Positions 1,764-29,153 of a stretch of DNA of 36,128 bases are shown piece by piece (the stretch's first letter is position 1; every line of letters begins with the position of its first letter). The translations under genes and the position numbers were made by a program. The stretch is from IMG/VR virus record IMGVR_UViG_3300047455_000348, positions 1-36,128 of that record; one strand, 5' to 3'. Source of the stretch: a virus. The notes under the pieces were generated by a model. It was not told where the DNA came from. It saw only the letters and a program-made list of their open reading frames with translations, and ran no database searches.

Positions 1764-2948
1764 TCAGGCGGTGGCCGCGACGCGCTCGGCGAAGTCGGCG
1801 AGATACGAATCGGTGATGCGCTGCTGGAAGCCCAGGTCCTCGAGCGGCGGCACCGGCGTGTAGTCGTAATCGATGCGCAGCTTGCCGGCCTTGAGGGAGG
1901 TCTCGGTGTTGAGGTCTTCGTTCAGCCAGGCCGCGCCGTCGACGATCAGCCCCAGGTTCTTGAGCTCGCGAAACTTGGCGTTGACCCCTTCGATGATGTC
2001 CCGCGCGAGCGAGGCGTGAAGCGGCTTGTCGACCGCCCACAGGTGCGCCTCGGCGACCGTGTCGGCGAGAATTTGAGCCGTCCTCGTATAGTTTTCAAAA
2101 GGGAACAGGGATTCCGGTCCGGCGCAGGTGCGCGAGCCCCAGAAGCGGTAACCGCCCTGGTTGATCAGCGTGGTGACGTCCGCAGCGTTGAGGATGCCGG
2201 CATCGGTATTGGGCGACTGCAGATCCCAGAACACGTCGCGGTCGATCCCGGTGACGCCGTTGACCACGACGTTGGAAAGGGTCTTGTGCCAGCCGACTTC
2301 CTGGTCGAGCTTGGCGCGCAGGCCGAGCGCGACCGCGACGGGGCTGACCGTGCCCGTGGCAGCGTCATCGGTGTCGAACGCCTCGAACTGCGGCCAGATC
2401 ACCATCAGCTCCCGTGCGCCGAACTGGTCGCGGTAGGCGGTGACGTCGGTAATGGTCTCGCAGCCGTGGGCGTAGACGTAGCCGAAGGCGCGCAGTTGTT
2501 GCAGCACCGGTACCAGGGCGGTGGCCACCGGCTGGGTGTCCAGCGCTGGTACGCCGATGATGCGTGGCGTCACGCCCAGTTTTTGCTTGGCGGTGAGCAA
2601 CGCTTGTAGGCCGGTACGCTGGCCCGTCTCGGTCGTGGTGCCGATGATATTGGCGGTGGTCTCCTCGTCATCGATGCCCTCGGCCACGCGCACCACCACG
2701 ATGACCGGCTTGGACTGGTCGCCGATCGTGGTGAGGGTGTCTTTCAGCGTGCCTTGGGTGCCAGCCTTGCCGATGGCGGTATCGACATTGGTGACCAGCG
2801 CCGGGCGGTCAAGGGGGAAGGTGGTCGCGTCGGCATCCTCGGCGGTGCAGACCACGCCGATGACCGCCGTGGAAACGGTGCGGATGGTGCGGGTACCGTC
2901 ATTGACTTCGGAGACGCGCACCCCGTGATGGTATTGGTCGAGTGCCAT
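1764..2948 (-). CDS. FI: Contractile tail sheath protein gpFI
   Basis: 394 residues, matching P2 gpFI (about 396). It forms the outer sheath that contracts on infection. The start MALDQYHHGVRVSEVNDGTR, with RTVSTAVIGVVCTA just behind it, is typical of the family. The C-terminal half contains the WAVDKPLHASLARDIIEG and VPPLEDLGFQQRITDSYLA segments expected for the sheath core. ATG 2948 follows AGGAG at 7 nt. It is the first gene of the FI-FII-E-T-U-D operon and is preceded by a late activator box at 3033-3056. Confidence 0.96.
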   Translation of the reverse strand: MALDQYHHGVRVSEVNDGTRTIRTVSTAVIGVVCTAEDADATTFPLDRPALVTNVDTAIGKAGTQGTLKDTLTTIGDQSKPVIVVVRVAEGIDDEETTANIIGTTTETGQRTGLQALLTAKQKLGVTPRIIGVPALDTQPVATALVPVLQQLRAFGYVYAHGCETITDVTAYRDQFGARELMVIWPQFEAFDTDDAATGTVSPVAVALGLRAKLDQEVGWHKTLSNVVVNGVTGIDRDVFWDLQSPNTDAGILNAADVTTLINQGGYRFWGSRTCAGPESLFPFENYTRTAQILADTVAEAHLWAVDKPLHASLARDIIEGVNAKFRELKNLGLIVDGAAWLNEDLNTETSLKAGKLRIDYDYTPVPPLEDLGFQQRITDSYLADFAERVAATA

Positions 2949-2994: not shown

Positions 2995-3056
2995 ATCGTG
3001 CGGGGCCCGGTACTGTAGGCGAAGTGGGGGAGGGTGTGGGAGGGGTGGTTTACACC
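2995..3056 (-). promoter_or_regulatory. Late promoter PF: palindromic activator box plus -10 hexamer
   Basis: The box GGTGTA-N12-CACACC (- strand) occupies 3033-3056. A -10-like hexamer CACGAT lies at 3000 to 2995, its centre 47 bp from the box centre. The predicted start is about 7 nt beyond the hexamer, giving a leader of about 41 nt before FI. The same box and spacing recur before V and P/O. P2 late promoters use an Ogr-bound dyad centred near -55, which agrees with this geometry. Confidence 0.75.
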
Positions 3057-3118
3057 TAAAGGTTTCAGTTCATCTGCCGATGTACATCTGGATTTATGTT
3101 CAAGGGAAGGTGAATGGT

Positions 3119-3502
3119 ATGAAGTCAGTAACTACGAAAGAGGAGCTGAATGATGCTGTTAAAGCCGGTGTGCCTGAGATAGTTATCGTTGGCGATCTTG
3201 CGGATAAGGTCGCAAGAACAAAAAAGTTGGGGATGCTTTCTGGTTGGCGTAAAAAAGTGTTTCTCACTTCAATAGCTTCAGCCACGGCGGCGACAGCTGC
3301 TATACCATTGACAGGAGGTTCTAGTACTGCAGCGGTTGCTGGTTTTGTGGCACCCGCAGCCGCCCTAAGTGGTATGGAGATTGCTGCTATCATTATTTCC
3401 ATCACAATTGGCGCAGGGATGTTGATAGGTTTACACAAAGATTATGAAGAAATCGAAGTTGGAAATGGCAAATTAGTGTTGCGAAAAAAGCAGAAAAAAT
3501 AG
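3119..3502 (+). CDS. AT-rich cargo gene: small protein with two C-terminal membrane helices, function unknown
   Basis: 127 residues from ATG 3119 (AAGG at 8 nt). Residues 1-35 are soluble and charged, with an EIVIVGDLADKV strand. Then come two hydrophobic Ala/Gly/Thr-rich segments, one after GWRKKV and one IIISITIGAGMLIGL. A short tail begins HKDYEEIEVGNGKL and ends in a basic RKKQKK. I do not recognise a named family. It is on the opposite strand to all surrounding tail genes, has its own terminator, and is clearly lower in G+C than its neighbours. It sits between G and FI, the position of fun(Z) in P2, a gene that excludes another phage. This suggests transferred cargo, possibly for superinfection exclusion (inference). 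An upstream in-frame Met at about 3080 is a less likely start. Confidence 0.72.
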   Translation: MKSVTTKEELNDAVKAGVPEIVIVGDLADKVARTKKLGMLSGWRKKVFLTSIASATAATAAIPLTGGSSTAAVAGFVAPAAALSGMEIAAIIISITIGAGMLIGLHKDYEEIEVGNGKLVLRKKQKK

Positions 3503-3513
3503 TTCTTTTCTTC

Positions 3514-3545
3514 AAAAATAGCCCGCCTTTCGGCGGGTTATTTTT
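3514..3545. terminator. Bidirectional rho-independent terminator
   Basis: The stem CCCGCC (3522-3527) pairs with GGCGGG (3532-3537) around TTTC. It is flanked by A5 on the left and T5 on the right, so it can terminate in both directions. It ends the + strand cargo gene and also the V-W-J-I-H-G operon. The stop codon of G (3546-3544) touches its T-tract. Confidence 0.88.
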
Positions 3546-4116
3546 ACCACACCACTGCTTCGATCCTTTCCCGATCCTCGGCCTCGAGCGCAGAGTTGAT
3601 CTCGCCTTTGCGCTGCCAACTGTGCTGGTACTGCGCGCTGACGTGCGCCTGGGCGGCCTCGGCGAGCTCGAGCATTTCGTCGGCCGTGAGTTCGTATTGC
3701 GCATTTGATTCAGCGCGGAACGCGAACGTACCCTCGGGATTTCGTTGAGCTGAGACAGCCAGGCCCACGATGTTTTCGCGATCACGGGCGCGCATCTGCA
3801 CCGTGTCCGTGGTGTCGCCGAAGGTATGCTCGAAGCCGGCGGCGATGGCCTCGTCGCGTGCGTTCTCGATCTCGCGGCGCTTGCGCTCGGCGAGGTCATT
3901 GAGTGAAGGCGGCTCCGAGGCTGGAAGATCTACCCAGGTTGGCCGGCCCTCTTGCGTGGCTCCTCGAGCTTTTCCTGTAGGTGGAGAGTTGGCGCCGTAG
4001 GTTTTCCATTCTTTTCGCGTGACCTTGATCGCGTCACTGGGCCACACGCCGTTAGCTTCATATCGAGCTTTAAAGGCTGGATCGTAAAACTTGTTTTCAG
4101 TAGGACTATAGAACAT
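3544..4116 (-). CDS. G: Tail fibre assembly chaperone gpG (Tfa-like)
   Basis: 190 residues. The N-terminus MFYSPTENKFYDPAFKARYE with PSDAIKVTRKEW, and the central NDLAERKRREIENARDEAIAAG stretch, match the tail fibre assembly/DUF4376 type. Such proteins trimerise or fold the distal tail fibre. It is encoded 12 nt after the tail fibre gene H, as in P2, and ends at the bidirectional terminator. ATG 4116 follows GGAAG at 6 nt. The C-terminal part is helical and rich in Glu and Ala. Confidence 0.88.
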   Translation of the reverse strand: MFYSPTENKFYDPAFKARYEANGVWPSDAIKVTRKEWKTYGANSPPTGKARGATQEGRPTWVDLPASEPPSLNDLAERKRREIENARDEAIAAGFEHTFGDTTDTVQMRARDRENIVGLAVSAQRNPEGTFAFRAESNAQYELTADEMLELAEAAQAHVSAQYQHSWQRKGEINSALEAEDRERIEAVVW

Positions 4117-4128
4117 AACGTCTTCCCA

Positions 4129-5331
4129 TTAGCGACCTATGCCAAAAAACATAGCGTGTGCATCTTCACTACCACCGCTATTGCTTCCACTAATCCTGTA
4201 AGCAATACCGTTTAGGCCGGAAGAACTAACCATGGATAGAGAGCAAATCAGCTCCTGTGCTTCGGAATTAAAATTTCCCTGCGTGGTCGCTACTGCACAA
4301 AAAACTTCGCTAGGGAATGGGACTGGCCAGTCAGCCGAGAAAACAGTTTTTCCATGAACATGATCCACGCTGCCACTGGGGTTCCCGCCCAGGTCGTTAT
4401 CGCTATCAGGGCCCTTGAACATTACCCCGCCCCATTGAAAAATCACTCCCCCCAGCCAATCGGGAAACCCGATATAACCGTTTTTGCCGAGACTAATTGA
4501 AAACCCCCACCGCAGTTTTTTCGGCGTCACCGCCGTTTCATCATCTTCCCCGGCTTCAACCTGCGCTTGAGTCGCAACTTTCATCATGCCGGCAACAGTT
4601 TCAGTTGCCTGCTTTACCCAGCTCGTTGCCCATGCTTTGAGTTTCTTTGGGGTGACGAACTTGGTGTCGTTTGTGCCGGTATCGACCGTGTCTTGATCGG
4701 CAACACGATCATCAATCGCGGCTTTCACTCCGGCGAGATGCGCGGCGCGGTCGGTGCGGGTGCCTTGTCGGGTTTCCTCGCTGGTGCCGAACTGCATGAA
4801 CCCCTTGGCGGTGGTCGTTGCGTCGGGGTGATTGCGGCTTTGCGCGTGGGAGTCGATCTCGTCGTCGACATAAGCTCGCGTGGCGAGGACCACCGCTGGG
4901 TCAACCTTCAGCTCGACGTTGGCGGTGTTGCTGAGGATCAGGTGCATACGCACGACTTGGTTGCGTCCTGAGCCCTGAGCAAGCAGCGGCTTGTAGCTGG
5001 GGGCGCAGTTGGCGACGGCGACAAAATCGCCATCCTCGTCTTCGAGGCCGAGTTCGCGGATCCACCAACCCCCGACGTTGGGCGGCAGTACCAATTCAGC
5101 GATCAGGATCGCGGGATTGGCCGGATCGATGGAGAGCTGATTAATCGCGGCTCGGTAGACCTGGTGGATCAATCCGGTCTGCTCAGGATCCGGTACCGGG
5201 TCGGAGCCATTGGCATCGCCCAGCAGCATATGGGTGAGCTTCCATGGGATCTTGAGCGCGTTGGCGTTGGACTGCTTGGCCTCGCCGATATCGGTCAGGA
5301 AACCGCCAAAGGTGGAGTTTTCGTCAACCAT
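4129..5331 (-). CDS. H: Tail fibre protein gpH
   Basis: 400 residues from ATG 5331, which overlaps the end of I by 8 nt. An earlier in-frame Met would lie deep inside I and is not used. Residues 1 to about 160 form the N-terminal collar-attachment domain of P2-like fibres, including [18 protein letters not shown] and a [20 protein letters not shown] segment. The middle contains fibre repeats of the type [20 protein letters not shown] and [20 protein letters not shown], each followed by a VTPKKL motif. The C-terminus ([17 protein letters not shown] to the end) resembles the gp53-like distal tip domain, the likely receptor-binding part. At 400 residues it is shorter than P2 H (about 669). Confidence 0.93.
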
Positions 5332-5950
5332 AGAGATGGACTTCCAAGGTGTCGGTGGTGGTTGTGGCCACGGCATGTCGCGAGTGGCATGCGATATCGA
5401 TGTCGGGCGTCTCCCATGGCAAAACGTCGAGTTCATCCCCGTCGTAGACGGACACCCCGACGTACGTTGTCAGCGAGCTGCTCAACGTGATGTCGAGACC
5501 AGTGATGTGCCGAGTTAGAGGTTTCGCATCGGCGATCAGCCGCTCAAGTTCGGTGAACATCTCTTCGGTGATGCCGGTATCGAGCACGCCGATGCGCAGG
5601 TCGAACGTGCCGCGCTGACCTGGGGGATCGGTCTGCCACCATTCGACGACCTCGAGCAGGTAGCCCAGGGGCTCGACGACGCGGCGTAGGGCGCTGATCG
5701 TGCCTTTCTTGCGGTGTACATAGAACGAGCTACGGATCACCGCGCGCTTGGCTGCTTCCGACCAGGTCGGATCCCAGCGATCGACCGAGAAGGTCCATGC
5801 CAGGTAGGGCAGCAGCCGCGCTGGGCAGCGGTCGGGATGCCAAAGATCTCGCAGAGGCACCGGGACGCGCTCGATCTCGGCGCCCGCCTCGGCAGCGGCG
5901 CGCTCGAGGAACGATGCATTGGGGGGGAGCAACGTCCAGTGATCAGCCAT
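5324..5950 (-). CDS. I: Baseplate protein gpI
   Basis: 208 residues. It contains the P2 gpI core: a start ending in [20 protein letters not shown], then the [18 protein letters not shown] and [19 protein letters not shown] segments. gpI is a wedge component at the baseplate rim that connects to the tail fibre. It overlaps J by 8 nt at its start and H by 8 nt at its end, indicating tight translational coupling. Confidence 0.95.
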
Positions 5951-6860
5951 TGCTCGCTCCCAGAGTGACGTTGATGCCTGTGCAATGTCCGGCCTGGGTG
6001 AGGTCGAAGAGGATGTGGTCTGCCGGTGAGATCAGGTCGACATGCTCGACCCCCTCGACATGCAGAGCGGCTTCAATCGCATCGGTGTAGATGCTGCGGC
6101 CAAGTTTGCGCTGCTCGTTGCGGTACTTCTCGGCGCGGGCCAGGGCGCTTTCGAGGATGAGTTCCTGCTCGGGGCCGTGCCCTTCATACAAGTGCAGTAC
6201 GGCCTGGATGGTGTATTCGGTGATTGCCGCGGACTGGACAGTGACTCGATCACCCAGTGGCCGAATGTCTTCGGGAGTGAGTGCGTCATACACGTTGTCG
6301 AGTAAGTCCTGCGGGGCCTCGCCATTACCCAAGCGCGACAGCACTGTGATCAGGGCCTCGCACGGTGCCGGCGAGATCGCGCGAGCATCGGCGACACGCC
6401 CATCGGCACTGCGGGCATAGAATTCGTAGGCGCCGGTCGGTCCGGCGACGCTGAGTCCCTCGAAGGCTTCGGGGCCGCGCATGCGAAGGTCGTCGTCCGG
6501 TTCCAGCGTCGGGGGGACCGGTGGCACTGCTTCCGCATCACCTGGTTCTACGGTCAGGCGTTGGACGTTGAAATTGGCGACCAGGTTGTCGAGGTCCTCG
6601 TTTTGCGCATGAGCGATCATGACCGCCTTGGCCGCTTCATTGACTCGCTGGCGCCAATGCAGCTCACGATAGGCGTTTTCCTCGAGCAGCTTGGTGATCG
6701 GTTCGCTTTCGAGCTCAAGGGTGGCCGCGACGTCGGCGCGTTCATCCTCCGGCGTCAATTCGAGCAAGCGGGATTTGCGCTCGGCGAGAATCGTCTCGTA
6801 ATCGAGTTCCTCGACGACGGCCGGGGCTGGTAAGCGGGAGAGATCGATCGGGCTACTCAT
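5943..6860 (-). CDS. J: Baseplate protein gpJ
   Basis: 305 residues, near P2 gpJ (302). The start MSSPIDLSRLPAPAVVEELD with ETILAERKSRLLELTPED, and later HAQNEDLDNLVANFNVQRL, identify a baseplate J-like wedge protein. It overlaps W by 4 nt upstream and I by 8 nt downstream. It belongs to the V-W-J-I-H-G operon. Confidence 0.96.
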   Translation of the reverse strand: MSSPIDLSRLPAPAVVEELDYETILAERKSRLLELTPEDERADVAATLELESEPITKLLEENAYRELHWRQRVNEAAKAVMIAHAQNEDLDNLVANFNVQRLTVEPGDAEAVPPVPPTLEPDDDLRMRGPEAFEGLSVAGPTGAYEFYARSADGRVADARAISPAPCEALITVLSRLGNGEAPQDLLDNVYDALTPEDIRPLGDRVTVQSAAITEYTIQAVLHLYEGHGPEQELILESALARAEKYRNEQRKLGRSIYTDAIEAALHVEGVEHVDLISPADHILFDLTQAGHCTGINVTLGASNG

Positions 6861-7207
6861 GCGGCGGCCCCCAATGGGACGTCGATGTCCACGTCATCAC
6901 CGGTGTCGATACGGCGCCCTGCGATGCGCAGGTCGAAACGCCCTGGGCGCGTGGTGGATACGATGCGGGTGATCTGCGTCACGCGGACGCGCGGCTCCCA
7001 CTTCATCAGCGCGACGACGGTGGCCGAGTAGGCGCGCAGAGCCGTGGCGCCGTTCAGCGGCTGGTCGATGAGTTCGGGCAACAGCGAGCCGTAGTCGCGG
7101 CGCATCACACGCGAGCCCAGCGGCGTGGTCAGGATATCGACGATGGATTGCCGGAGATGCTCGAGCGAGTCGAGACGCTGGCCGGTGGTGCGCGACATGC
7201 CAGGCAT
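6857..7207 (-). CDS. W: Baseplate wedge protein gpW (gp25-like)
   Basis: 116 residues with the gp25-like pattern: RQSIVDILTTPLGSRVMRRD followed by YGSLLPELIDQPLN, and a C-terminal RRIDTGDDVDIDVPL. gp25-like proteins form the core of the baseplate wedge and help trigger sheath assembly. The start ATG 7207 overlaps the stop of V by one base (TAATG). Confidence 0.96.
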   Translation of the reverse strand: MPGMSRTTGQRLDSLEHLRQSIVDILTTPLGSRVMRRDYGSLLPELIDQPLNGATALRAYSATVVALMKWEPRVRVTQITRIVSTTRPGRFDLRIAGRRIDTGDDVDIDVPLGAAA

Positions 7208-7896
7208 TAAATGACCTCCCCTGATGTACCGCTACCGGGCTCGACTTTGTCGTGGGCGTGCTTGGAGCTGATGTCCTTGCCGTTGCTGGTCACGGCACCC
7301 TTGAATGCCACGTCGCCGGCCATCGTCGCCTTTTTGCCTGCGGGCTGGCTGAGGTTGCCATTCAGCGTCAGGTTGCCGTTGATGAGGGTGTTGGCGTTGA
7401 TCGTCGCGCCGCCGGTGGCCGTGGCGTTGAGGGTCGATTTCGTTGTCGCTTTGATAGCGCCGTCGGCAGATACGGTAACGGCACCGCTCGTGGTCAACCC
7501 GGCGGAGCCGGGTATATCGGCCCGTAAGTGATGTGCCGCGTGGTCGTACTCTAGGACAGCGCCATCGGGGAACACGCGACGCCAGATGTCTGGGGAGTTG
7601 GCCGGGGCCGAGTGAGCGTTGGAAAAGAGGCCGGTAAGCACCACGCCAGTGGCCGGATCGCCGCCGGGCGAAAACACCATGACCTGCTCGCCTTCAGTCG
7701 GCGGATCCCAGTCGCGTGTCGTCCCGGCTCGGCCTTCGATCCACGGCAGCCAGTCGGTCAGCAACTCGCCGGATTTGACGCGCACGCGCGGCGGCCGAGG
7801 TGGATCGGCGTCGGGGTCACCATGATCGACCTCGGCGATGGTGCCCAGGCGGATGAGGTTGTGAATCAGGCGGAGAAGTTCGGCGACGTTTTGCAT
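7207..7896 (-). CDS. V: Baseplate spike protein gpV
   Basis: 229 residues, near P2 gpV (211). The N-terminal part contains LLRLIHNLIRLGTIAEVD, the OB-fold region, then a repetitive beta-helix-like middle rich in T, A, G and N. It ends with a HAH motif near the C-terminus; in P2-type spikes an HxH motif binds iron at the tip. gpV trimers form the membrane-piercing needle. No Shine-Dalgarno sequence is visible before ATG 7896, and the predicted transcription start falls on the ATG (see promoter), so it may be translated from a leaderless mRNA. It is the first gene of its operon. Confidence 0.95.
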   Translation of the reverse strand: MQNVAELLRLIHNLIRLGTIAEVDHGDPDADPPRPPRVRVKSGELLTDWLPWIEGRAGTTRDWDPPTEGEQVMVFSPGGDPATGVVLTGLFSNAHSAPANSPDIWRRVFPDGAVLEYDHAAHHLRADIPGSAGLTTSGAVTVSADGAIKATTKSTLNATATGGATINANTLINGNLTLNGNLSQPAGKKATMAGDVAFKGAVTSNGKDISSKHAHDKVEPGSGTSGEVI

Positions 7897-7902
7897 GCCG
7901 CT

Positions 7903-7964
7903 ATCGTGCGGAAGCTGCGGTGCCAGGCGAAGCGGGCGCGGGTGTGGCGCGGGCGTCTTACACC
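7903..7964 (-). promoter_or_regulatory. Late promoter PV: palindromic activator box plus -10 hexamer
   Basis: The box GGTGTA-N12-CACACC (- strand) occupies 7941-7964, overlapping the 3' end of S. The hexamer CACGAT lies at 7908 to 7903 and its centre is 47 bp from the box centre, exactly as at PF. The sequence CCGCACGATA around the hexamer is identical at PF and PV. A start 7 nt beyond the hexamer coincides with the A of the V start codon (7896). Confidence 0.75.
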
Positions 7965-8416
7965 GAGTTCAGATGGGTGAATAGCGCATTGATGACGAGC
8001 TCGCGGTCGGCATCGGTGAAGCCGAGCAGCTCGCGCTGCGGGTATTCAATGGTGGGGCCGTCGCGATCGACGCGGTCGCGTAGACCGTACTGGTGGGTAC
8101 GGGCGATGCGCGCGACGTTGCCCATGAAACCGACCACCGCGGTGTCACCGTGCGCGGTGGCTTTCATCCACTTGGCGGTGGAGAGCTTGTCGAACATGGC
8201 GCTTCGGCGGATGCTGCCTTGGCGGGCGCGCCACTTTTGGGGTTTGCGCGGCGCATAGGGCGTGCCGTCGGGATTGGTCTGCGAGCGGATGCGCTGGCGT
8301 TGGCTGCGGCGCAGGTCGCGGGCGATGGCGCGCGCCAGGCGGCGGCGTTCCTTGGCTTCGAGCTGGGCGAGTAGGGGCGCTGCCCAGTCTTCCAGGGCTT
8401 GCAAGTCATCCGTCAT
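7958..8416 (-). CDS. S: Tail completion protein gpS
   Basis: 152 residues, the usual length for P2 gpS. It contains RRRLARAIARDLRRSQRQRI followed by NPDGTPYAPRK, the family signature. gpS-type proteins finish the tail and are needed for head-tail joining. Its start overlaps the end of R by 11 nt. Confidence 0.95.
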   Translation of the reverse strand: MTDDLQALEDWAAPLLAQLEAKERRRLARAIARDLRRSQRQRIRSQTNPDGTPYAPRKPQKWRARQGSIRRSAMFDKLSTAKWMKATAHGDTAVVGFMGNVARIARTHQYGLRDRVDRDGPTIEYPQRELLGFTDADRELVINALFTHLNSV

Positions 8417-8900
8417 CGGTCTCGCCCCATTCGGCGGCTAGGGTGTAGTCGTCGTCGGCTTCGGCGTCGCGCAGTAGTAGCTGCCAACGCGCGATAGGGC
8501 AGGCATCGCGCTCGAACCGTGACAAGACATGATCGACGTGGATATGGCCGCTGTCGCAATCGACCTTGGCGATCACGCGCTCGGTGAGTCGTACGCGCAG
8601 CGCGACGTCCACCGCTTGGTTGCTGAGGATCTCGGCCTCGAAGCTGACCGCCTCGCCGGGATCCGCGTCGGGTTGGTACTCGGCCAGCCACTGCAGCAAC
8701 GGCACCATGACGGTGTCGAGGTCATCGCCAAAGTCGGTCAGCACCAGCTGCGCGGCGAACTGATATTCGTGTGACAGGTTAGGGCCGCGTCGAAACTCGA
8801 GGCTGCCATCCTCGACGAAGGTCAGCAGCCTATCGGGATCTCGGGCCAGCCCCGGCACGGCGTTAATCAGGTGCGTGCGTAGCAGGTGGAGTTTTTTCAT
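8406..8900 (-). CDS. R: Tail completion protein gpR
   Basis: 164 residues from ATG 8900 (MKKLHLLRTHLINAVPGLAR). An in-frame ATG at 8930 would add ten residues, but the shorter start matches P2 gpR (MxKxxxLRxxL). The middle carries FRRGPNLSHEYQFAAQLVLT, typical of the family. It overlaps lysC upstream by 38 nt and S downstream by 11 nt. Its product acts with S in tail completion. Confidence 0.93.
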   Translation of the reverse strand: MKKLHLLRTHLINAVPGLARDPDRLLTFVEDGSLEFRRGPNLSHEYQFAAQLVLTDFGDDLDTVMVPLLQWLAEYQPDADPGEAVSFEAEILSNQAVDVALRVRLTERVIAKVDCDSGHIHVDHVLSRFERDACPIARWQLLLRDAEADDDYTLAAEWGETDDG

Positions 8901-9153
8901 CGGTGTGCTCGTGGCATTGGATGATGGCATCGACCTCGGCGGCGCATTGCGCCCAGGCGGCTTCGGTTCGCTCGAGCTGCTCGAGTAGTGCGCCGTTAGT
9001 CATCGGTGCGCTCGCGGGGAGGCTGCATGGGCTGGGCGTCGCGCAGCGCTTGACGATAATCGGCGGCGCCGGTGACGGCGGGGCGCTCGCGCAGGCGGAT
9101 AACAGCGTCAGGCAGGCGAGTACCAGCCCACGCACGTAACTCGGCATTTTCAT
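8863..9153 (-). CDS. lysC: Rz1-like outer-membrane spanin lipoprotein (LysC-like)
   Basis: 96 residues with a lipoprotein signal peptide. The hydrophobic segment LVLACLTLL is followed by the lipobox L-S-A-C (Cys 21), then a proline-rich stretch SAPPSPAPPII. It is the outer-membrane partner of the spanin pair that fuses the two membranes at the end of lysis. The gene begins in a different frame inside lysB and extends beyond it, the classic Rz/Rz1 nesting. At 96 residues it is somewhat long for the type, with a soluble tail overlapping R. Confidence 0.9.
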   Translation of the reverse strand: MKMPSYVRGLVLACLTLLSACASAPPSPAPPIIVKRCATPSPCSLPASAPMTNGALLEQLERTEAAWAQCAAEVDAIIQCHEHTDEKTPPATHAPD

Positions 9154-9466
9154 GGATCAGCTCCCGCAGGCGGGTGAGTCGGTTCGAGGCGGTGCGCTCC
9201 AGGTCAGCCTTCGTGTCGTTCAGTTGCTGGCGTTGCTCCTCGAGGCGCTGGGCGTTTTGCCACAAGGCGTCGATTACCAACTGACGCTGGGCGTTTTCGG
9301 CCTGGGCAGCGTCGAGCGCTTGCCGGGCGGCGGCTGCGTCGGTCAGCGCGGTGCGGTATTCCTGCCAGGCGAACCAGCCGCCGGCGCCGACTACCCCGGT
9401 GCCGATCAGCACCAGCCATACCTTGAGCGGTACGGCGCCGATAGCGCGCCCCAACAATGCGGTCAT
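8996..9466 (-). CDS. lysB: Rz-like inner-membrane spanin (LysB-like)
   Basis: 156 residues from ATG 9466, which overlaps the endolysin stop by ATGA. One N-terminal membrane helix (about residues 14-34, VWLVLIGTGVVGAGGWFAW) is followed by a long periplasmic coiled coil rich in A, Q, R, E and L. This is the topology of i-spanins. The C-terminal half contains LTRLRELIHENAELRAWA and LPDAVIRLR, common in P2 LysB proteins. Its partner LysC is encoded inside its 3' half in another frame. Confidence 0.92.
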   Translation of the reverse strand: MTALLGRAIGAVPLKVWLVLIGTGVVGAGGWFAWQEYRTALTDAAAARQALDAAQAENAQRQLVIDALWQNAQRLEEQRQQLNDTKADLERTASNRLTRLRELIHENAELRAWAGTRLPDAVIRLRERPAVTGAADYRQALRDAQPMQPPRERTDD

Positions 9467-9936
9467 GGGTCGAGCCCCCGCAGGCATAGCTTGCGCTCAG
9501 CGGCGCGGCGCTTGACCAAGCCGGCGAGCTTACGGCCCCCGCCGTAGACCCAGCGGTTGAGCTCGTTACAGGCGGCGCGCACTTTGCCGGCGTTCAGTCG
9601 CTTCAGCAGAGTCGAGCGGGCGAATTTACCTTCGCCGACGTTGTAGACGAACGAGGCCAAGGCCGCGCGACGCGCCGGGGGCAGCTCGACTTCGACGCGC
9701 TGGTCGACGGCGTCGAAGGCCGTGCCGAGATCCTTGGCGAGCAATTCCTTGCACCGGGCTTTACTCAGGGTCTGGCCCATATCGACATCGCCGGTGTGCC
9801 CGTAGCAGATGGTCGGGATGCCCACTGGGTCGCGGTAGGCCTCCGACCGGTAGCCCTCGAACTGGGAGACAACCGCCGTGGCTAGGCTGAGCGCGCCGGC
9901 GGTCCCGCCGACGATGAGGCGGCGTTTAAGACTCAT
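9463..9936 (-). CDS. SAR endolysin (lysozyme, glycoside hydrolase 24)
   Basis: 157 residues. It cleaves peptidoglycan glycan strands. The T4-lysozyme catalytic triad pattern E-8-D-5-T is complete: E27 (FEGYRSEAYRD), D36 and T42 (PTICYGHTG). Residues 7-24 form a weakly hydrophobic Ala/Gly/Thr-rich segment after two Arg, typical of a signal-anchor-release domain that lets the enzyme escape the membrane once it is depolarised. This suggests the neighbouring holin may be of the pinholin kind. It overlaps the holin stop by 11 nt. Confidence 0.95.
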   Translation of the reverse strand: MSLKRRLIVGGTAGALSLATAVVSQFEGYRSEAYRDPVGIPTICYGHTGDVDMGQTLSKARCKELLAKDLGTAFDAVDQRVEVELPPARRAALASFVYNVGEGKFARSTLLKRLNAGKVRAACNELNRWVYGGGRKLAGLVKRRAAERKLCLRGLDP

Positions 9937-10126
9937 CGCGGTTCCTCCAGCGCTTCCACTTGCGCACGTAATGCGGAATCAGCAAGCCGATCTGCAAGAC
10001 CAGGTAGAGCAGAGTCAGGGCGGTGACCCAGTCGGCCGGCGTCATGCCGCCCATGTATAAAGCGGTGACGAATGCAGGTGGGGTCGCCTTGAGGCTTTCG
10101 GTGGTGATTTCGAGCGGCTGGGCCAT
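9926..10126 (-). CDS. Small holin
   Basis: 66 residues from ATG 10126, with GAGG at 5 nt. Residues 33-54 form a single clear membrane helix ending in PHYV. A basic C-terminus (RKWKRWRNRDES) follows. It sits between X and the endolysin, the holin position of P2-like genomes. It is shorter than P2 Y (93 residues, three helices) and of a different class. Pairing with a SAR endolysin would fit a depolarising holin, but that is inference. Confidence 0.82.
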   Translation of the reverse strand: MAQPLEITTESLKATPPAFVTALYMGGMTPADWVTALTLLYLVLQIGLLIPHYVRKWKRWRNRDES

Positions 10127-10149
10127 GCGGTCCTCGAAGCGTTGGAAAG

Positions 10150-10362
10150 TCAGTCCCAGAGCTGCACGGTTGGCGCACGGCTGGGGGCTTGGGTGATCTC
10201 GGGCAGCATGACGGGCGTACCGTGAGGCAAGACGGGGCCGAGATCGGCCAGTCCAGGATTGGCCCGCAGCACGCGTTCGGTGACGCCGGCGGTGGTGCCA
10301 TAGATGCGATAGCAAATAGCGTCGAGTGTGTCGTATTGCCGTGCGTGGACCGTGCGGCTCAT
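10150..10362 (-). CDS. X: Tail protein gpX (LysM-like)
   Basis: 70 residues, close to P2 gpX. The motif QYDTLDAICYRIYG, then VLRANPGLADLGPVLPHGT and a final VQLWD, is the family signature. It is probably a LysM-like tail component. Its ATG overlaps the stop of L (ATGA). Confidence 0.96.
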   Translation of the reverse strand: MSRTVHARQYDTLDAICYRIYGTTAGVTERVLRANPGLADLGPVLPHGTPVMLPEITQAPSRAPTVQLWD

Positions 10363-10829
10363 ATCAGCTCGACCGTGCTATGGGGGCGCCCCTCGATCTC
10401 GCTGATTGCCCAGGCCGCATCGCGCCGGTAACTCTCTGCCGGCTCGGCGAGGCTTTCGCTACGCTCGCGCCCGCTGTTGGTGGTGTCGTAGTCGGCGTAA
10501 CGCTCGACCAGGCTGGCGTGCGCCGTGGAGTAGACCGCGCGGCGATACAGCGCTTTGAACACTCCCGGCGCTTGCCAGATTGGCACCGGCACGGCATCGA
10601 CCGTGTCATAGCCCGCCTCGACCTGTTTGGCCTGCCAATTGCGCAGCGTGCGATTGACCGTGGCCATGGCGGCAAGCAGGGCGCCTTCGATTCGCACTGC
10701 GGTGATGGTGCCGTCGAGGCGATGCGTGTCACGGAACGCATCGGGTTCGATATCCGGCCAGAAGCCGTTATTCGTGACGGGCTCGGCGGTGGTCGTGCTT
10801 GTGGTGCCGGTCGAAACGAAGCTGCTCAT
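10359..10829 (-). CDS. L: Head completion protein gpL
   Basis: 156 residues (P2 gpL is about 169). It contains NNGFWPDIEPDAFRDTHRLD and the VNRTLRNWQAKQVEAGYDTV segment of the family. gpL-type proteins bind at the portal after packaging to stabilise the head and receive the tail. ATG 10829 follows AGGAG at 6 nt. A 114-nt gap to M upstream holds no gene or clear signal. Confidence 0.95.
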   Translation of the reverse strand: MSSFVSTGTTSTTTAEPVTNNGFWPDIEPDAFRDTHRLDGTITAVRIEGALLAAMATVNRTLRNWQAKQVEAGYDTVDAVPVPIWQAPGVFKALYRRAVYSTAHASLVERYADYDTTNSGRERSESLAEPAESYRRDAAWAISEIEGRPHSTVELI

Positions 10830-10943
10830 CGTGGCTCCTGGTGCTGATCAAGAAGGGGGTGGGCGATGGGTCGAGGCCGCGCCCCTTGGGCTTGCCTCTA
10901 CCGTCGCGCCCCCTGACGTCGGCGTGCGACTCGTTGGCGACGA

Positions 10944-11609
10944 TCAGGCGTTGGCTTGATCGTCGGCGTTCTTTACCTCGCGCTCGAGGCGCTCGATGTC
11001 TTTCTTGACGCCGGCGCGGTCGTTGAGCTCCAGCGCCCGGCGAAAGTGCGTCAGCGCTTCCTGTGGCGTGCCCTCGGCGCGATGGGCGTTGCCCAGGGCC
11101 TTGTGCAATTTCGCGCGGATCTGGTCGTGCATGTCCGCGCCCGCGGTGAGGCGCTCGATCTCCTGGAGTTCCTCGAGCAGGGTGGCGTCATCTGCTTCCA
11201 GGGCGAGCGCTTGGTCGGCGGCTTCCTCGACGAGAATCGCGGCGGTGGAGCGCTGAAATTGATCGCCAGGCTCTAGCCCGTGGCGCAGGGCATAGCGGCC
11301 GATGCTCAACGCGCCCTCGATGTCGCCGACATCGATGCGCCAAAGCATGACGCGCATCAGCACCTCGTCTTGTGCGCCCTGGCCAGCTTCGAGCACACCT
11401 TCCACGTAGGCCGCGTAGTCGGGCAGGATCTCGCGCTTGATGGCGACCTTGCGCTCGATGGATTGCACCGACTTGAGCCGGCGGTAGTCCTCGAAGAGCT
11501 TGGCTTGCATGAAGTGATATTCGTCGCCCTGCATGGGCGCGTCGCCGGCGTCACGCGCCGCTTGTGCGGCGCTGACGCGTTCGAAGTGTCGACGAATGGA
11601 ACTGACCAT
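10944..11609 (-). CDS. M: Terminase small (endonuclease) subunit gpM
   Basis: 221 residues (P2 gpM is about 247). The YHFMQAKLFEDYRRLKSVQS, KREILPDYAAYVEGVLEAG and GDIEGALSIGRYALRHGL segments identify P2 gpM, which cuts DNA at cos together with gpP. The last third resembles TPR-like helical repeats (TPQEALTHFRRALELNDRAG). It starts 2 nt after the N stop, with a GGGGCG stretch as a weak ribosome site. Confidence 0.94.
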   Translation of the reverse strand: MVSSIRRHFERVSAAQAARDAGDAPMQGDEYHFMQAKLFEDYRRLKSVQSIERKVAIKREILPDYAAYVEGVLEAGQGAQDEVLMRVMLWRIDVGDIEGALSIGRYALRHGLEPGDQFQRSTAAILVEEAADQALALEADDATLLEELQEIERLTAGADMHDQIRAKLHKALGNAHRAEGTPQEALTHFRRALELNDRAGVKKDIERLEREVKNADDQANA

Positions 11610-11611
11610 CG

Positions 11612-12622
11612 TTACGCCCCGCTAGTGGTATCGGCATCGGCGAACTCGATGCCCTCGACCAGGCAGCCGAAGCCGTAATCCTCGATCACGTATGCATCGT
11701 TGCTGGACTCGTAATTGACGATGCGCTTGCGCTCCGGCTTCTCGACCAGGTGGCGGCGGCGCGAGCCTTCCTGCCAGTAAATCGAGAGGTTCTCGGTCGA
11801 GGTGATGAAGATGGCGTTGTCCGGCATGAACGGCACTTGCATGGCGTTCTGCCCGCCGAAGCGCTTAGCGGCCATGATCAGGTCCAAGGCGCGGGATTCC
11901 GTGGGCTGCTCCCATTCATTGATCTTGGGCAGGTACTTGTCGGTCATCAGCGAGCGGCCGACGATGGCGACGAGATCGGTGTTGTCGCGGTACCACGGGT
12001 CGATGAGGGAGTTGACCGCCTCGTACACCAGAGCGTCGAGGTTCTGGAATTCCTGCCCCTTGCCGATCTGGATGCCATCGATCACGCGCTCGGCGGCATT
12101 GGCGCGGTATTGCTGCAGCCAGCCGACGTTCACGTCCTCGAGCATCGGGTTCGCCGTACGGTCGGTCTGCTTGGCAGCGCTGGTGCCGTTGAGCCCGATC
12201 ATGATCCGATCGAGCGCTTGCTGGCGAACGATGGCATCGCGCACGCGGGCCTGAAAGTCCGGGAACTTGGCCCAGGCATCCAGCTTGGCCCAGCTCAGGA
12301 AGGTATCGAACTCGGTGGATTGGCAGCGGTATTCGTGCTCGTCCAGCTGGGTAGGATCGCTGGGATTGCGGTCACGCTGGCTGACGTCGGTGCGCCCGGC
12401 GATGGGGCCGCTGATGCCGAGCCCCAGCTTTTCACCAATCATGTCGCGCACGCCGACCATGTTGACGCGATTCAGGAACTCGCTGGATTCCTGGATCTTG
12501 GTTTCCAACGTTTGCTGCACCGACGGATCGACATCGAACGTCGAGAACGCGTCCGGGGCGCCATTCAGCTGCGCGAGCCGCTGGGCGTAGTTGTTCAAAA
12601 GTTTGCGGGTATCGTTACGCAT
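11612..12622 (-). CDS. N: Major capsid protein gpN
   Basis: 336 residues, close to P2 gpN (357). The opening MRNDTRKLLNNYAQRLAQLN and the KIQESSEFLNRVNMVGVRDM segment are typical of the P2-family HK97-fold capsid. P2 capsid protein is processed at its N-terminus by the gpO protease, so the first roughly 30 residues here may also be removed (known for the family, not visible here). It lies directly after O in the late operon. Confidence 0.97.
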   Translation of the reverse strand: MRNDTRKLLNNYAQRLAQLNGAPDAFSTFDVDPSVQQTLETKIQESSEFLNRVNMVGVRDMIGEKLGLGISGPIAGRTDVSQRDRNPSDPTQLDEHEYRCQSTEFDTFLSWAKLDAWAKFPDFQARVRDAIVRQQALDRIMIGLNGTSAAKQTDRTANPMLEDVNVGWLQQYRANAAERVIDGIQIGKGQEFQNLDALVYEAVNSLIDPWYRDNTDLVAIVGRSLMTDKYLPKINEWEQPTESRALDLIMAAKRFGGQNAMQVPFMPDNAIFITSTENLSIYWQEGSRRRHLVEKPERKRIVNYESSNDAYVIEDYGFGCLVEGIEFADADTTSGA

Positions 12623-12637
12623 GAGCGTCGGGATTCC

Positions 12638-13453
12638 TCAGCAGTCGGTTTCGATGGTGCCGTCGTCGCCGGTGGCGCGCTGGCGTGGGGTGTGGCGCGG
12701 CGTGCTGTCGAGCTGGGTATACAGCTCGTCGAAGCGGGTTTGCAGGGTGTCGTGCGCGGCTTTCAGGTCATTGAAAGCCGTGGCGCTGGGACGCGCGTTG
12801 AGGTCATCGGCCAGGGCCTGGTGCTTCTCGACGAAGAGTCCCAGGGTCTGCTCGAGCTCTTCACGAAACGCTGCGAATCCCGCCTCGCTTTTGGCGTCGT
12901 GCTTGCGAAACAGCGCCTTGACGCGCTCGGTGAGCGACGGGCCGGAATCTGTCGGTGGCTCGGCGGTGAAGTCGAACTCGGTCTCGATGGCGGCGGTAAA
13001 CAGGTTGTCCGGGCGTTGCTTGCGTCCGGCCAGCGGTGACTCGCTACCCGCGCCGGCGGCGAACTGCAACATCTGGGTGCCCAGCGAGGCGGGGGAGTCG
13101 GTGACGGCGAGCCCGACGAGATACGCCTCACCGGTGTCCGCGAAGTTGGGATCGACTTCCATCGACGTGTAGACCTTCTGGCGCTTGTCGTTGAGCGCCT
13201 TCAGGTCGTCGGTGGGATCGATGGCCGCGAGCAGCTGAAGCTTGCCGTCCTCGCCTTTCTCGGTCTTCAGCGCGGTGACGTCGCCGTAACTCTTGAACGG
13301 CCCGTCGGGCAGCATGCCGCGCATGTGCTCCAGATTGATCCGGCAGCCGTAGGTGTCGGGATCGAAGTTGTCGGCCATCTGTTGCAGCCAGGCGGCGCTG
13401 ATGTTGCGGCCGTCGGTCGTCGCGCCCTCGGTCGCGATGCGGAACCATTTCAT
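12638..13453 (-). CDS. O: Capsid scaffold and maturation protease gpO
   Basis: 271 residues from ATG 13453, with GAGG at 7 nt. The longer reading frame above it is not used. The N-terminal half is the serine protease. D14 (TTDGR), H43 (NLEHMRG) and S97 (VYTSME) align with the D19, H48 and S107 triad of P2 gpO. The C-terminal half is helical and charged (KALFRKHDAKSEAGFAAFRE onward) and corresponds to the scaffold. It is the first gene of the O-N-M-L-X-lysis-R-S operon and diverges from P. Confidence 0.95.
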   Translation of the reverse strand: MKWFRIATEGATTDGRNISAAWLQQMADNFDPDTYGCRINLEHMRGMLPDGPFKSYGDVTALKTEKGEDGKLQLLAAIDPTDDLKALNDKRQKVYTSMEVDPNFADTGEAYLVGLAVTDSPASLGTQMLQFAAGAGSESPLAGRKQRPDNLFTAAIETEFDFTAEPPTDSGPSLTERVKALFRKHDAKSEAGFAAFREELEQTLGLFVEKHQALADDLNARPSATAFNDLKAAHDTLQTRFDELYTQLDSTPRHTPRQRATGDDGTIETDC

Positions 13454-13489
13454 GAAGTGCCCTCGGGGTACGGAATGCGTATGGGCGTC

Positions 13490-13589
13490 AGGTTCCGCGC
13501 ACTCGGTGCCCGGCTCAACGCGGGCCGGGTGTGAGTCATGCCGTCTACACCGGGGCCTGCAATAGCGAAATCCCGCGCGCGGGTACGCT
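13490..13589. promoter_or_regulatory. Divergent late promoters PO and PP sharing one palindromic activator box
   Basis: The box GGTGTG-N12-TACACC occupies 13528-13551. On the + strand a hexamer TACGCT (13584-13589) and on the - strand a hexamer GAACCT (13495 to 13490) are both centred exactly 47 bp from the box centre. One dyad may therefore serve both directions, whereas P2 has a separate promoter element for each. The predicted PP start falls on or next to the P ATG (13597). PO gives a leader of about 30 nt with a Shine-Dalgarno sequence. Confidence 0.72.
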
Positions 13590-13596
13590 GGGCGCC

Positions 13597-15381
13597 ATGA
13601 CGACACCGACCCCCGACCTGGATACTCAAGACGCCTCGCGTCTCTCCGCCCGGCACCTCTACTGGATGGGGTGGCGCATCGCGCGTATCGCCGAATTCCT
13701 CGACCTGCCCCGTGCCACCATCGATAGCTGGAAGAAACGCGATGCCTGGGACGATGCCTCGCCCAGTCAGCGCATCGAAGGCGCGCTCGAGGCGCGCATG
13801 ATCCAACTGATCTGGAAGGACGCGAAGGAGGGCAAGGACTTCAAGGAGCTGGATCTCTTGGGGCGCCAGGTCGAGCGCCTGGCGCGGGTCCACAAGTACG
13901 AGGAATCGGGCAAAGAAAGCGACCTCAATCCGAACATCGAACGGCGCAACGCCGGCGAGAAGCGCAAACCCGCGCGCAACGATGTCGGCGACGAGGGCGT
14001 GATCCAAATCGTGGAAGCGTTCGAGGCCTCGCTGTTCGATTACCAGCGCGCCTGGTACCGCGCCGGCCAGCACGAACGTATCCGCAACCTGCTCAAGTCG
14101 AGGCAGATTGGCGCGACCTGGTACTTCGCGCGTGAGGCGATCGCCGACGCCGTGGAGACCGGCAAGAACAAGATCTTCATGAGTGCCTCGAAGGCCCAGG
14201 CGCACATCTTTAAGCACTACATCGTGCAGTTCGTGAAGGAGGCCACCGGCGTGGAGCTCAAAGGCGACCCCATCGTCTTGGCCAATGGCGCCGAGCTCCA
14301 TTTCCTGGGGACTAACGCCAAGACCGCGCAGGGCTACCACGGCGACACCTATCTCGACGAATACTTTTGGATCAACGGCTTCGAGCAGTTCCGCAAAGTC
14401 ACGTCAGGCATGGCGATGCACAAGAAGTGGAAGCAAACCTACTTCAGCACGCCGTCATCGGTGGCGCATGAGGCGTATCCGTTCTGGACGGGCGAGCGCT
14501 TCAATAAGCGCCAGAAGAAGGCCGACCGAGTGTTGATCGACGTCAGCCACGCCGCGTTGAAAGGCGGCGCTCGCGGCCCGGACGGTCAGTGGCGCCAGAT
14601 CGTGACCATCGAGGACGCGATCGCCGGCGGCTGCGACCTATTCGATCTCGATCAGCTGCGGCTGGAATACAGCGACGAGGAATTCGCCAACCTCCTGATG
14701 TGTGAGTTCGTCGACGACTCCCAATCGGCGTTCCCGATGATGACCATGCAACGCTGCATGGTGGATAGCTGGGACATCTGGCGCGACTGGAAGCCTTTCG
14801 CCGCGCGCCCATTCGGCGACAAGCCGGTGTGGCTGGGCTATGACCCGGCGGGGGACAACCTGGACGGCGATGGCGCGGGGCTAGTCGTGCTGGCGCCGGC
14901 GAAGAATCGCAACGATCGGCATCGCATCCTGGAGAAGCACCGCATCAAAGGACAGGACTACGAAGAGCAAGCGGGCTTCATCGAGCAGGTGACCCGACGC
15001 TACAACGTCCAGTTCATCGGCATCGATATCAACGGCATGGGCGAGGCGGTAGCGCAACTGGTCGCAAAGTTCTTTCCGCGCGTGACGCGCTATCGCTACA
15101 CGCCGGACAGCAAGGCGGCGCTGGTGCGTCAGGCACAGCACATCATCGAGCGCGGGCGTCTCGAGTTCGATAGCCGTGACGTGATCATCGCCCAGTCCTT
15201 CACCGCCATTCGCCGCGAGCTGACCGCGAGCGGCCGCCAATTCACCTTTACCGCAGGGCGCAACGCCCAAACCGGCCACGCCGACTTGGCGTGGGCGACG
15301 ATGCACGCTCTCAACAACGAACCCATCGACGTGCTCGCCGAGGGCGAGCGCGGCGGCGCCATCATGGAGATGTCCGAATGA
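13597..15381 (+). CDS. P: Terminase large subunit (ATPase) gpP
   Basis: 594 residues from ATG 13597 (P2 gpP is 590). It drives DNA into the prohead. Residues about 18-50 form a helix-turn-helix (MGWRIARIAEFLDLPRATID) typical of the P2 P N-terminus. The Walker A-like LKSRQIGATW is at about 166-175 and the Walker B TYLDEYFW at about 251-258. The nuclease-fold segments GYDPAGDNLDGDGAG and GHADLAWATMHAL lie near the C-terminus. No ribosome site is seen before the ATG. Upstream in-frame Met codons would overlap the activator box and are not chosen. Confidence 0.97.
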   Translation: MTTPTPDLDTQDASRLSARHLYWMGWRIARIAEFLDLPRATIDSWKKRDAWDDASPSQRIEGALEARMIQLIWKDAKEGKDFKELDLLGRQVERLARVHKYEESGKESDLNPNIERRNAGEKRKPARNDVGDEGVIQIVEAFEASLFDYQRAWYRAGQHERIRNLLKSRQIGATWYFAREAIADAVETGKNKIFMSASKAQAHIFKHYIVQFVKEATGVELKGDPIVLANGAELHFLGTNAKTAQGYHGDTYLDEYFWINGFEQFRKVTSGMAMHKKWKQTYFSTPSSVAHEAYPFWTGERFNKRQKKADRVLIDVSHAALKGGARGPDGQWRQIVTIEDAIAGGCDLFDLDQLRLEYSDEEFANLLMCEFVDDSQSAFPMMTMQRCMVDSWDIWRDWKPFAARPFGDKPVWLGYDPAGDNLDGDGAGLVVLAPAKNRNDRHRILEKHRIKGQDYEEQAGFIEQVTRRYNVQFIGIDINGMGEAVAQLVAKFFPRVTRYRYTPDSKAALVRQAQHIIERGRLEFDSRDVIIAQSFTAIRRELTASGRQFTFTAGRNAQTGHADLAWATMHALNNEPIDVLAEGERGGAIMEMSE

Positions 15382-26495: not shown

Positions 26496-26571
26496 GATAA
26501 CATATTACGCAGGGAGGCATCATTGCTATGTCAATCACTTATTATAACAAACCATGTCCGGAGGCATTGAT

Positions 26572-27102: not shown

Positions 27103-27104
27103 TA

Positions 27105-29089: not shown

Positions 29090-29153
29090 CTCATCATCCT
29101 GACACGAAAATCTGGTCGCTATGATACGTGGACCGTGGATCCGGCGCCATGGC

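Follow-up and report, generated by a model that had tools for sequence, protein, structure and literature searches.

The 36,128-nt window (the whole stretch of DNA analysed) belongs to a P2-like phage of salt-loving bacteria whose closest relatives are Chromohalobacter prophages, and it carries three perfect copies of a palindromic box, GGTGT-N14-ACACC, each set at a fixed distance from late promoter -10 hexamers. Judged from sequence, the three boxes probably form a late regulon read by the phage's Ogr protein, in which base 2 of the box arm would be recognized mainly by Ogr residue 22, with residue 34 a likely helper. The boxes, the fixed -10, their conservation in relatives, the covariation of box and regulator and the concerted switches of the two were established computationally; regulons of this kind are already known, the arm variant is new, and a testable recognition code is proposed.

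Boxes and late promoters of the window

The motif GGTGT-N14-ACACC starts at 3033, 7941 and 13528 and is present in none of 100 dinucleotide shuffles; when spacers of 0-30 between GGTGT and ACACC were tried in the window, 14 was the sole one present. An earlier note, made from the letters of this DNA, had described the box as GGTGTR-N12-YACACC at 3033-3056, 7941-7964 and 13528-13551, nowhere else in the window, and placed before the FI, V and O/P units; the same three copies were recovered and the gene starts agree with that placement. A scan of the window at up to three mismatches returned 26 matches with 31.3 expected, no more than chance would give; weak matches were therefore set aside, and only the perfect boxes stand out.

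Box 1 (3033..3056, minus strand) lies upstream of the operon headed by FI, the tail sheath gene (1764..2948, minus strand, ATG at 2948; Pfam Phage_sheath_1, 1e-21), and is kept before FI in relatives. Box 2 (7941..7964, minus strand), also a perfect match, is upstream of the unit headed by V, the baseplate spike gene (7207..7896, minus strand, ATG at 7896; Pfam Phage_base_V, 5.9e-14), and overlaps the 3′ end of an ORF at 7958-8416. Box 3 (13528..13551, no strand assigned) is common to two divergent promoters, those of O, the capsid scaffold/protease gene that heads the O unit (12638..13453, minus strand, ATG at 13453; Pfam Phage_GPO, 1e-99), and of P, the terminase ATPase subunit gene (13597..15381, plus strand, ATG at 13597; Pfam Terminase_5/6N/6C); the P2 record likewise has one activator site for pO and pP.

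The late -10 hexamers are CACGAT for FI (2995..3000, minus strand), CACGAT for V (7903..7908, minus strand), GAACCT for O (13490..13495, minus strand) and TACGCT for P (13584..13589, plus strand). In all four promoter directions the centre of an xAxxxT hexamer lies exactly 47.0 bp from that of the box, and the three boxes with their fixed -10 are confirmed as an observation. Among 100 offsets downstream of the box, a single one (0-based 33) has A with T four bases on in all four promoters, every remaining offset having the pair in fewer than three; a search for a late -10 on the far side of boxes 1 and 2 found none, the two positions being occupied by G and T at box 1 and by A and C at box 2. 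The O promoter also has a -35-like TTGAGC (13513..13518, minus strand) 17 bp from its -10, and TTGAG is kept in every one of the 13 N14 O promoters that remain after deduplication. Boxes 1 and 2 have stretches in common in the sequence between box and -10.

The -10 of V is six bases from the V ATG and that of P is seven bases from the P ATG, the spacing of a leaderless transcript of the P2 V type. A gap of 6-7 bases recurs in relatives, for P in 50 of 50 cases with a called -10 (seven more lack one) and for V in 37 of 42 (two more lack one), all counted before deduplication. The V mRNA should be leaderless and the P mRNA near-leaderless; as predicted from these distances, each would start on its own ATG or within 1-2 nt of it.

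Conservation in relatives

The boxes are kept at matching places in relatives, and perfect copies are no commoner inside genes than before late units; perfect GGTGT boxes never exceed three per record in the 19 K- or N-type records (named for the Ogr residue discussed below) that make up the box class of the window, and are absent from 11 T-type records. A reversed control pattern was present once, in G006. In relatives the -10 lies at a fixed 33 bp from the proximal arm; among 89 N13 and N14 promoters left after deduplication, whose boxes were called without use of the -10, A is conserved in 88 and T in 87. The fixed 47 bp given in the earlier note holds within the window; across spacer lengths, the constant distance runs from the proximal arm rather than from the box centre. 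In 30 of 31 genomes the three sites share one spacer length, and N12, N13 and N14 boxes were all called among relatives; the window's departure in arm and gap from the published consensus is thus that of a variant within this regulon type, not of a phage outside it.

Several further sites were recorded. C stands on one arm at some other T-phage sites (V of G004, G006 and G031; FI of G048), and at FI of G031 the call, a weak one, is C/G. In Larsenimonas (L235, L250) a GGTGT-like box lies near Q beside a K-type Ogr, where, on a rough estimate, chance alone would supply about one match of this kind per locus. Cellvibrio mixtus has two Ogrs (F and S types) and two prophages (one with GCTGT, the other with TTTGT/CTTGT), on contigs that break; the F-type Ogr is predicted to belong to the GCTGT prophage.

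Ogr and its covariation with the box arm

The ogr gene (24129..24392, minus strand) encodes an 87 aa zinc-binding late activator of the Ogr/Delta family, and is the one match to PF04606 in the whole record (3.2e-12, cut-off passed); it is placed in an early block beside a Toprim protein. The protein has the zinc motif C-x2-C ... C-x4-C (C11, C14, C37, C42); these cysteines and R21 are invariant, and S23 is at least 90% conserved, among 16 diverse Ogrs. The candidate specificity residue, K22 within R21-K22-S23, was singled out by covariation with arm base 2. No sequence relative of Ogr was found in the PDB, and none of the PDB structures matched an Ogr model in Foldseek at E ≤ 0.001; that model, whose confidence is modest (pLDDT 67.6), was used for strand assignment only.

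The comparison of box arms with Ogr sequences, suggested in the earlier note, covered 116 pairs, of which 99 were usable; arm base 2 (N-[2]-TGT) was set against residue X of R-X-S. The 17 pairs left out, in which either a clear box or an Ogr match was missing, came from 15 of 26 named phages and 2 of 33 IMG/VR records, and include six of T type (Acica, EtG, Kp3LV, Kp5.4, P88 and 186); G263, G242 and AsaLPM4 were retained under a looser rule. K goes with GG in 24 of 24 pairs and Y with CC in two of two, each of these residues being represented by one or two related Ogr families, and T goes with TT in 49 of 50, the exception being Alfacinha1 with A/C. N goes with A or G in 11 of 12 (seven AG, two AA, two GG, one GT), and S is mixed (six TT, three GT, one CG, one GG). 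Among 35 pairs not previously seen together the agreement was T 24/24, K 2/2 (one of the two being G263) and Y 1/1. The claim that the Ogr of the window should have its own specificity is thereby supported, as base 2 covaries with residue 22.

With 63 or 49 Ogr clusters in the comparison, residue 22 scores highest among the Ogr columns (z 20.8 and 14.5); with only 34 or 23 distant clusters kept, residue 34 equals or passes it (z 8.3 against 8.2; 5.3 against 4.0), which leaves both residues as candidates for the contact.

Concerted switching of Ogr and boxes

Along a gpP tree, 15 changes of base 2 and 16 of residue 22 were counted; in 5-6 of 7 independent pairs on supported branches the two change together (median p 0.06, a small test). 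Of nine pairs compared around ogr, only two, both close, retain a neighbouring primase with an identity of about 90% or more (92% and 90%), versus 43% and 37% for Ogr. In the first of the two, G010/G015, divergence extends to the repressor and to small genes upstream of ogr (about 50-60% identical), so Ogr is not the sole protein exchanged. Ogr and the boxes, as read from these comparisons, switch jointly and repeatedly, even among close relatives; a regulatory motif at three sites shifts in step with its regulator many times, mostly inside one host family.

Alternative readings

It is quite possible, if less probable than recognition mainly by residue 22, that the boxes bind Ogr with residue 22 a mere family marker and the specificity in residue 34 or in several residues jointly. 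The slight lead of residue 34 at 34 and 23 clusters, the mixed S class and the confinement of K and Y to few families would fit this, as would two N-type records, vG032 and vG033, which share the Ogr context RNSVAMHP and differ in base 2 of their O/P boxes (G/T and A/A). Against it, residue 22 is clearly first at the two larger cluster sets, and among the closely related class-A Ogrs K is found with G only, while in four of six N relatives one arm of the O/P box carries A as its base 2.

Binding of the boxes by another phage protein, with Ogr merely co-travelling, is unlikely; the divergence of the G010/G015 repressor and small genes would make these the candidates, but P2 has annotated activator sites at matching places, and PMC3931495 and PMC5694545 describe Ogr as the late activator of P2. 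The adjacent primase is an improbable candidate because it stays 90-92% identical across two switches. Least credible is conservation for packaging, coding or shared ancestry with no regulatory role: box 2 does overlap the end of an ORF, and the stretches common to the intervals between box and -10 at boxes 1 and 2 could be read in this way, but the box-to-hexamer distance is constant over four promoter contexts with different surroundings and the arms at three dispersed sites change in concert. Recognition by Ogr is the preferred reading.

Comparison with known systems

The late operons are those of P2 (NC_001895), where three sites also serve four late promoters: as annotated, pO and pP use a common site, pV and pF have one each, and transcription starts 55-59 bp away from the centre of the site. 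The P2 promoters PP, PO and PF have xAxxxT at -12..-7 (PF start taken as 17626), like the window, and PV has CAATCT one base further up; the V transcript of P2 starts on the V ATG, and both phages have an Ogr-type zinc activator. The dyads of P2 are imperfect and of GTTG type, in contrast to the perfect boxes of the window; ogr follows D in P2 rather than lying beside a Toprim gene, and the P leader is 23 nt in P2, unlike the near-leaderless P predicted here. The earlier note had given the P2 dyad as TTGT-N12-ACAA: its arm does differ from that of the window, but the P2 PV site reads TTGT-N11-ACAA.

The gap from TGT to ACA is 14 in the window, and the printed values are 12 for the P2 consensus (TGT-N12-ACA) and 13 for the phiRSY1 motif (PMC3931495, PMC5694545); TGT and ACA are kept in the window, and base 2 and the gap differ. 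In Ralstonia phages phiRSY1 and phiRSA1 the dyad TGTTGT-N13-ACAACA precedes late units, centred -50 to -90 from start codons, and an Ogr homologue is present; base 2 is T and the spacer 13, whereas the window has G and 14, and PMC5694545 reports no sigma70-type promoter, in contrast to the present set, where the fixed -10 is plain. For Stenotrophomonas phage Smp131 four late promoters with TGT-N12-ACA have been proposed, and the phage encodes an Ogr homologue; its arms and spacing are unlike those of the window, and a comparison of box with regulator sequence was not found in the available part of PMC3931495.

Two phages of the same clade as the window have N rather than K at the variable Ogr position: Halomonas phage vB_HboP_4908, with three perfect GGTGT-N14 boxes, and Bacillus phage vB_BpuM-ZY1, with one perfect copy and an O/P box that has A at base 2 of one arm. 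A residue-base rule was not found in the parts of the literature covered on Ogr, P2 late promoters and Halomonas P2-like phages; coverage of that field's journals was thin, which makes this weak evidence of absence. Ogr/Delta specificity is said to have been treated by Julien and Calendar (1996) and Pountney (1997); to our knowledge, the way in which small zinc proteins of this type, from P2-like phages or their satellites, recognise DNA has not been solved.

Proposed mechanism and implications

The regulon interpretation of the earlier note is supported. We infer that Ogr binds the box and contacts its base, activates the promoters and sets the start sites: the zinc protein of 24129-24392 would bind all three boxes and, positioned some 55-59 bp before the start as its P2 counterpart is, activate four sigma70-type promoters (PF, PV and the divergent pair PO/PP). 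In the half-site N-[2]-TGT, base 2 would be read by the first β hairpin of Ogr, with residue 22 (X in R-X-S) the main reader and residue 34 a likely helper; K would read G (as in the window phage), T would read T, Y would read C, N would accept A or G and S would be permissive. When a new Ogr is acquired, the three dispersed boxes would change along with it. If base 2 is read by a lineage-specific Ogr code, late regulons would be private to a phage lineage.

We lean modestly towards a general form of this proposal, in which Ogr/Delta proteins use a simple code, one residue in the first strand of the zinc ribbon reading base 2, and P2-like phages rewire the whole late regulon in concert. The covariation points to a single base and to one or two residues, and from it follows a prediction of what exchanging a single residue would do. 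Such a rule would state which Ogr/Delta protein switches on which prophage's late genes, with a bearing on helper-satellite and prophage-prophage cross-activation; if true, concerted rewiring would shield prophages and satellites resident in one host from one another's activators.

Probable late promoters of the window

The window, a virus record of 36,128 bp, carries a P2-like phage gene set, in which GPO scaffold, terminase P, baseplate V, sheath FI and GPD were found together with a tyrosine integrase, an S24-type repressor, a Toprim protein and an Ogr/Delta protein. The record looks circularly permuted, since late genes D, U and T at its right end seem to be continued by E, FII and FI at its left; of these, U, T, E and FII are named by position only. 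Among named host sequences the closest is a prophage of Chromohalobacter marismortui, with a terminase product, gpP, that is 99% identical.

The palindromic box GGTGTR-N12-YACACC, claimed in the earlier note at 3033-3056, 7941-7964 and 13528-13551 only, is present at all three places, before FI, V and the divergent O/P units, and absent elsewhere in the window; it occurred in 0 of 100 shuffles, and a scan of the window allowing up to three mismatches gave no excess of matches. The fixed spacing also stands, as the distance between box centre and hexamer centre is exactly 47.0 bp for all four -10 hexamers; the A and T recurring in all four promoters do so at one offset among 100, and no other offset reaches three. 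The P2 record annotates transcription starts and one activator site common to pO and pP, one at pV and one at pF; this layout of three sites for four promoters is that of the window. The two phages differ in the placement of ogr, which in the window (24129-24392, minus strand) lies in the early block, adjoining a Toprim/primase-like gene, with D at 32486-33490, whereas P2 ogr lies behind D.

Conservation and promoter geometry

Among 80 viral loci kept from a gpP scan, a loose dyad, TGT-N(10-17)-ACA, precedes P in 61 of the 63 with gpP 54-99% identical, L051 and L061 being the exceptions; none of the 17 with gpP 43-44% identical has it. Among the matches listed, arms and spacer are mostly uniform across the P, O, V and FI sites within a genome, where the window's class has GGTGT-N14-ACACC and others have GTTGT with N14 or N13; spacers agree across sites in 30 of the 31 genomes with all three sites called. 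Among 19 window-class records the perfect box never exceeds three copies (three copies in 12, two in 3, one in 3 and none in 1), and it has 0 copies in 11 GTTGT-class records; a reversed control pattern occurs once, in the record G006. Where traced, copies missing from IMG/VR records are the same sites with departures of one or two letters, as are those missing at P and FI of phage ZY1.

For the -10 counts near-copies were removed (90% identity), N12 boxes and P2 were left out, and the O/P box was counted once in each direction. With N14 boxes the A lies at 45.5 bp and the T at 49.5 bp, each in 50/51 promoters; with N13 boxes the A lies at 45.0 bp (38/38) and the T at 49.0 bp (37/38). Measured from the proximal arm these values are one and the same spacing, so that with a longer spacer it is the distal arm that moves. 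TTGAG occupies the -35 place of all 13 O promoters with N14 boxes; across O, V and FI, 37/37 promoters with N14 boxes have a T at this position, against 0/14 for P.

P2 gene V is a classic leaderless message. The gap from -10 to first ATG is 6 or 7 bases in all 50 P promoters in which a -10 was called (7 others had none) and in 37/42 V promoters (2 others had none), neither set being deduplicated; in the P2 record the V transcription start is the first base of the V ATG. From this gap and the P2 start, the V and P mRNAs of the clade are expected to have no leader or almost none; leaders are predicted for the O and FI mRNAs.

Covariation of Ogr and box

The comparison of box arms with Ogr sequences suggested in the earlier note drew on 116 Ogr-O/P box pairs, some of them duplicates. 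Besides the window itself, they come from 33 IMG/VR records, 26 named phages and 56 bacterial prophages, the last mostly from the family to which Salinicola rhizosphaerae (G062) belongs, taken here to be Halomonadaceae; in one pair (G061?) the Ogr gene and the box are on separate contigs. Boxes were called by requiring TGT and ACA, with the outer two bases free and a symmetry bonus. The residue compared (K22 in the window) follows the first CxxC and is flanked by a conserved R and a conserved S; in two-domain Ogrs the last domain was counted, which matters for G160, H and T. Seventeen pairs were dropped (no clear box or no Ogr match), leaving 99, three retained on a looser rule.

In these 99 pairs residue 22 goes with the second base of the half-site on both arms: G/G in 24/24 K-type, T/T in 49/50 T-type and C/C in 2/2 Y-type Ogrs. 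N-type Ogrs have A/G in 7, A/A in 2, G/G in 2 and G/T in 1, and the S-type is mixed (T/T 6, G/T 3, C/G 1, G/G 1). Thirty-five pairs not seen together before gave T 24/24, K 2/2, Y 1/1, N three A/G, and S four T/T and one C/G. The Y-type S. rhizosphaerae has TCTGT arms at its O/P and FI sites alike, with the V site uncalled. Two loci (L091, L092; genomes G044, G037) carry an R-R-S Ogr and no box by the criteria used; these Ogrs may have another half-site or another geometry.

Residue 22 is the strongest of all Ogr columns at 90% and 80% clustering (63 and 49 clusters; z 20.8 and 14.5); at 70% and 60% (34 and 23 clusters) residue 34 matches or exceeds it (z 8.3 against 8.2 and 5.3 against 4.0). 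A predicted Ogr model of modest confidence (pLDDT 67.6) has strands at residues 17-25 and 30-37, on which residues 22 and 34 may face each other; a sequence search found no PDB relative of Ogr and a fold search no convincing one. Residue 22, with 34, is taken as the candidate contact to base 2. The mixed S class argues against a pure one-residue rule, as do one T phage and the viral record pair vG032/vG033.

Shared ancestry was weighed on a gpP tree of 74 rows, with 15 changes of base 2, 16 of residue 22 and 3 of spacer. Well-supported branches gave 7 independent pairs, of which on average 5.5 have residue and base differing together and 0.1 apart, with no difference in the rest (sign test, median p 0.06, range 0.03-0.22). 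The primase beside ogr appears unlikely as the cause of the box switch; of nine pairs compared for ogr surroundings, two are informative: G010 (K, GGTGT) and G015 (T, GTTGT) have primases 92% and Ogrs only 43% identical, and G296 (K, GGTGT) and G195 (S, GTTGT/TTTGT) have primases 90% and Ogrs only 37% identical. The remaining seven pairs show primase identities of 65-73% or no primase match. The exchanged block is larger than ogr, since small genes and the repressor upstream of it have also diverged between G010 and G015.

Neighbouring genes and related prophages

Downstream of D lies a 252-aa reverse transcriptase (31384-32142, minus strand), the best models for which are retron-type (RT_I-B, 7e-18). 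Cargo between repressor and D (26554-30530) holds a DpdB-like protein (27105-28280; 1.5e-22), a Type II DNA methyltransferase (28277-29089; 5.9e-156) and a neighbouring 458-aa protein (29154-30530) without a PADLOC match, which could be the nuclease partner of the methyltransferase.

'Bacillus phage vB_BpuM-ZY1' (L154, L179, L209; OR820920.1) matches the Halomonadaceae P2-like clade in its genes, Ogr and boxes, with gpP 83% and sheath 89% identical to the window's; its recorded Gram-positive host looks doubtful. Cellvibrio mixtus J3-8 (L260, L261, L282, L293) carries two related prophages with GCTGT versus TTTGT/CTTGT boxes and two Ogr proteins, R-F-S and R-S-S, and is a natural case of co-resident phages with putative separate late regulons. 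Two Larsenimonas genomes (L235, L250, L270) have a K-type Ogr (L250:15648-15899) in addition to the T-type Ogr of their own GTTGT prophage, and a lone GGTGT-like N14 box near the end of Q (L250:12914; L235:12978). Some Ogr regions (L290, L359, L288; G063, G160, G053) encode at least two zinc domains, in one frame or as tandem genes, recalling the double-domain Delta protein of P4.

Relation to known regulons

Published work gives TGT-N12-ACA boxes for P2 and Smp131 (PMC3931495) and TGTTGT-N13-ACAACA for phiRSY1 and phiRSA1 (PMC5694545), and the polymerase mutation rpoA109 is suppressed by Ogr mutations, as cited in PMC11434276; a term search found no passage on late promoters in PMC11131426 (Halomonas prophages) and PMC11448403 (phage ZY1). 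The three-box finding is real and, to the extent that sequence can tell, so is its regulatory interpretation. This kind of regulon is already known; new are the GGTGT-N14 arms, one of a wider set of interchangeable arm types, and the new and testable part is the apparent pairing of an Ogr residue with an arm base.
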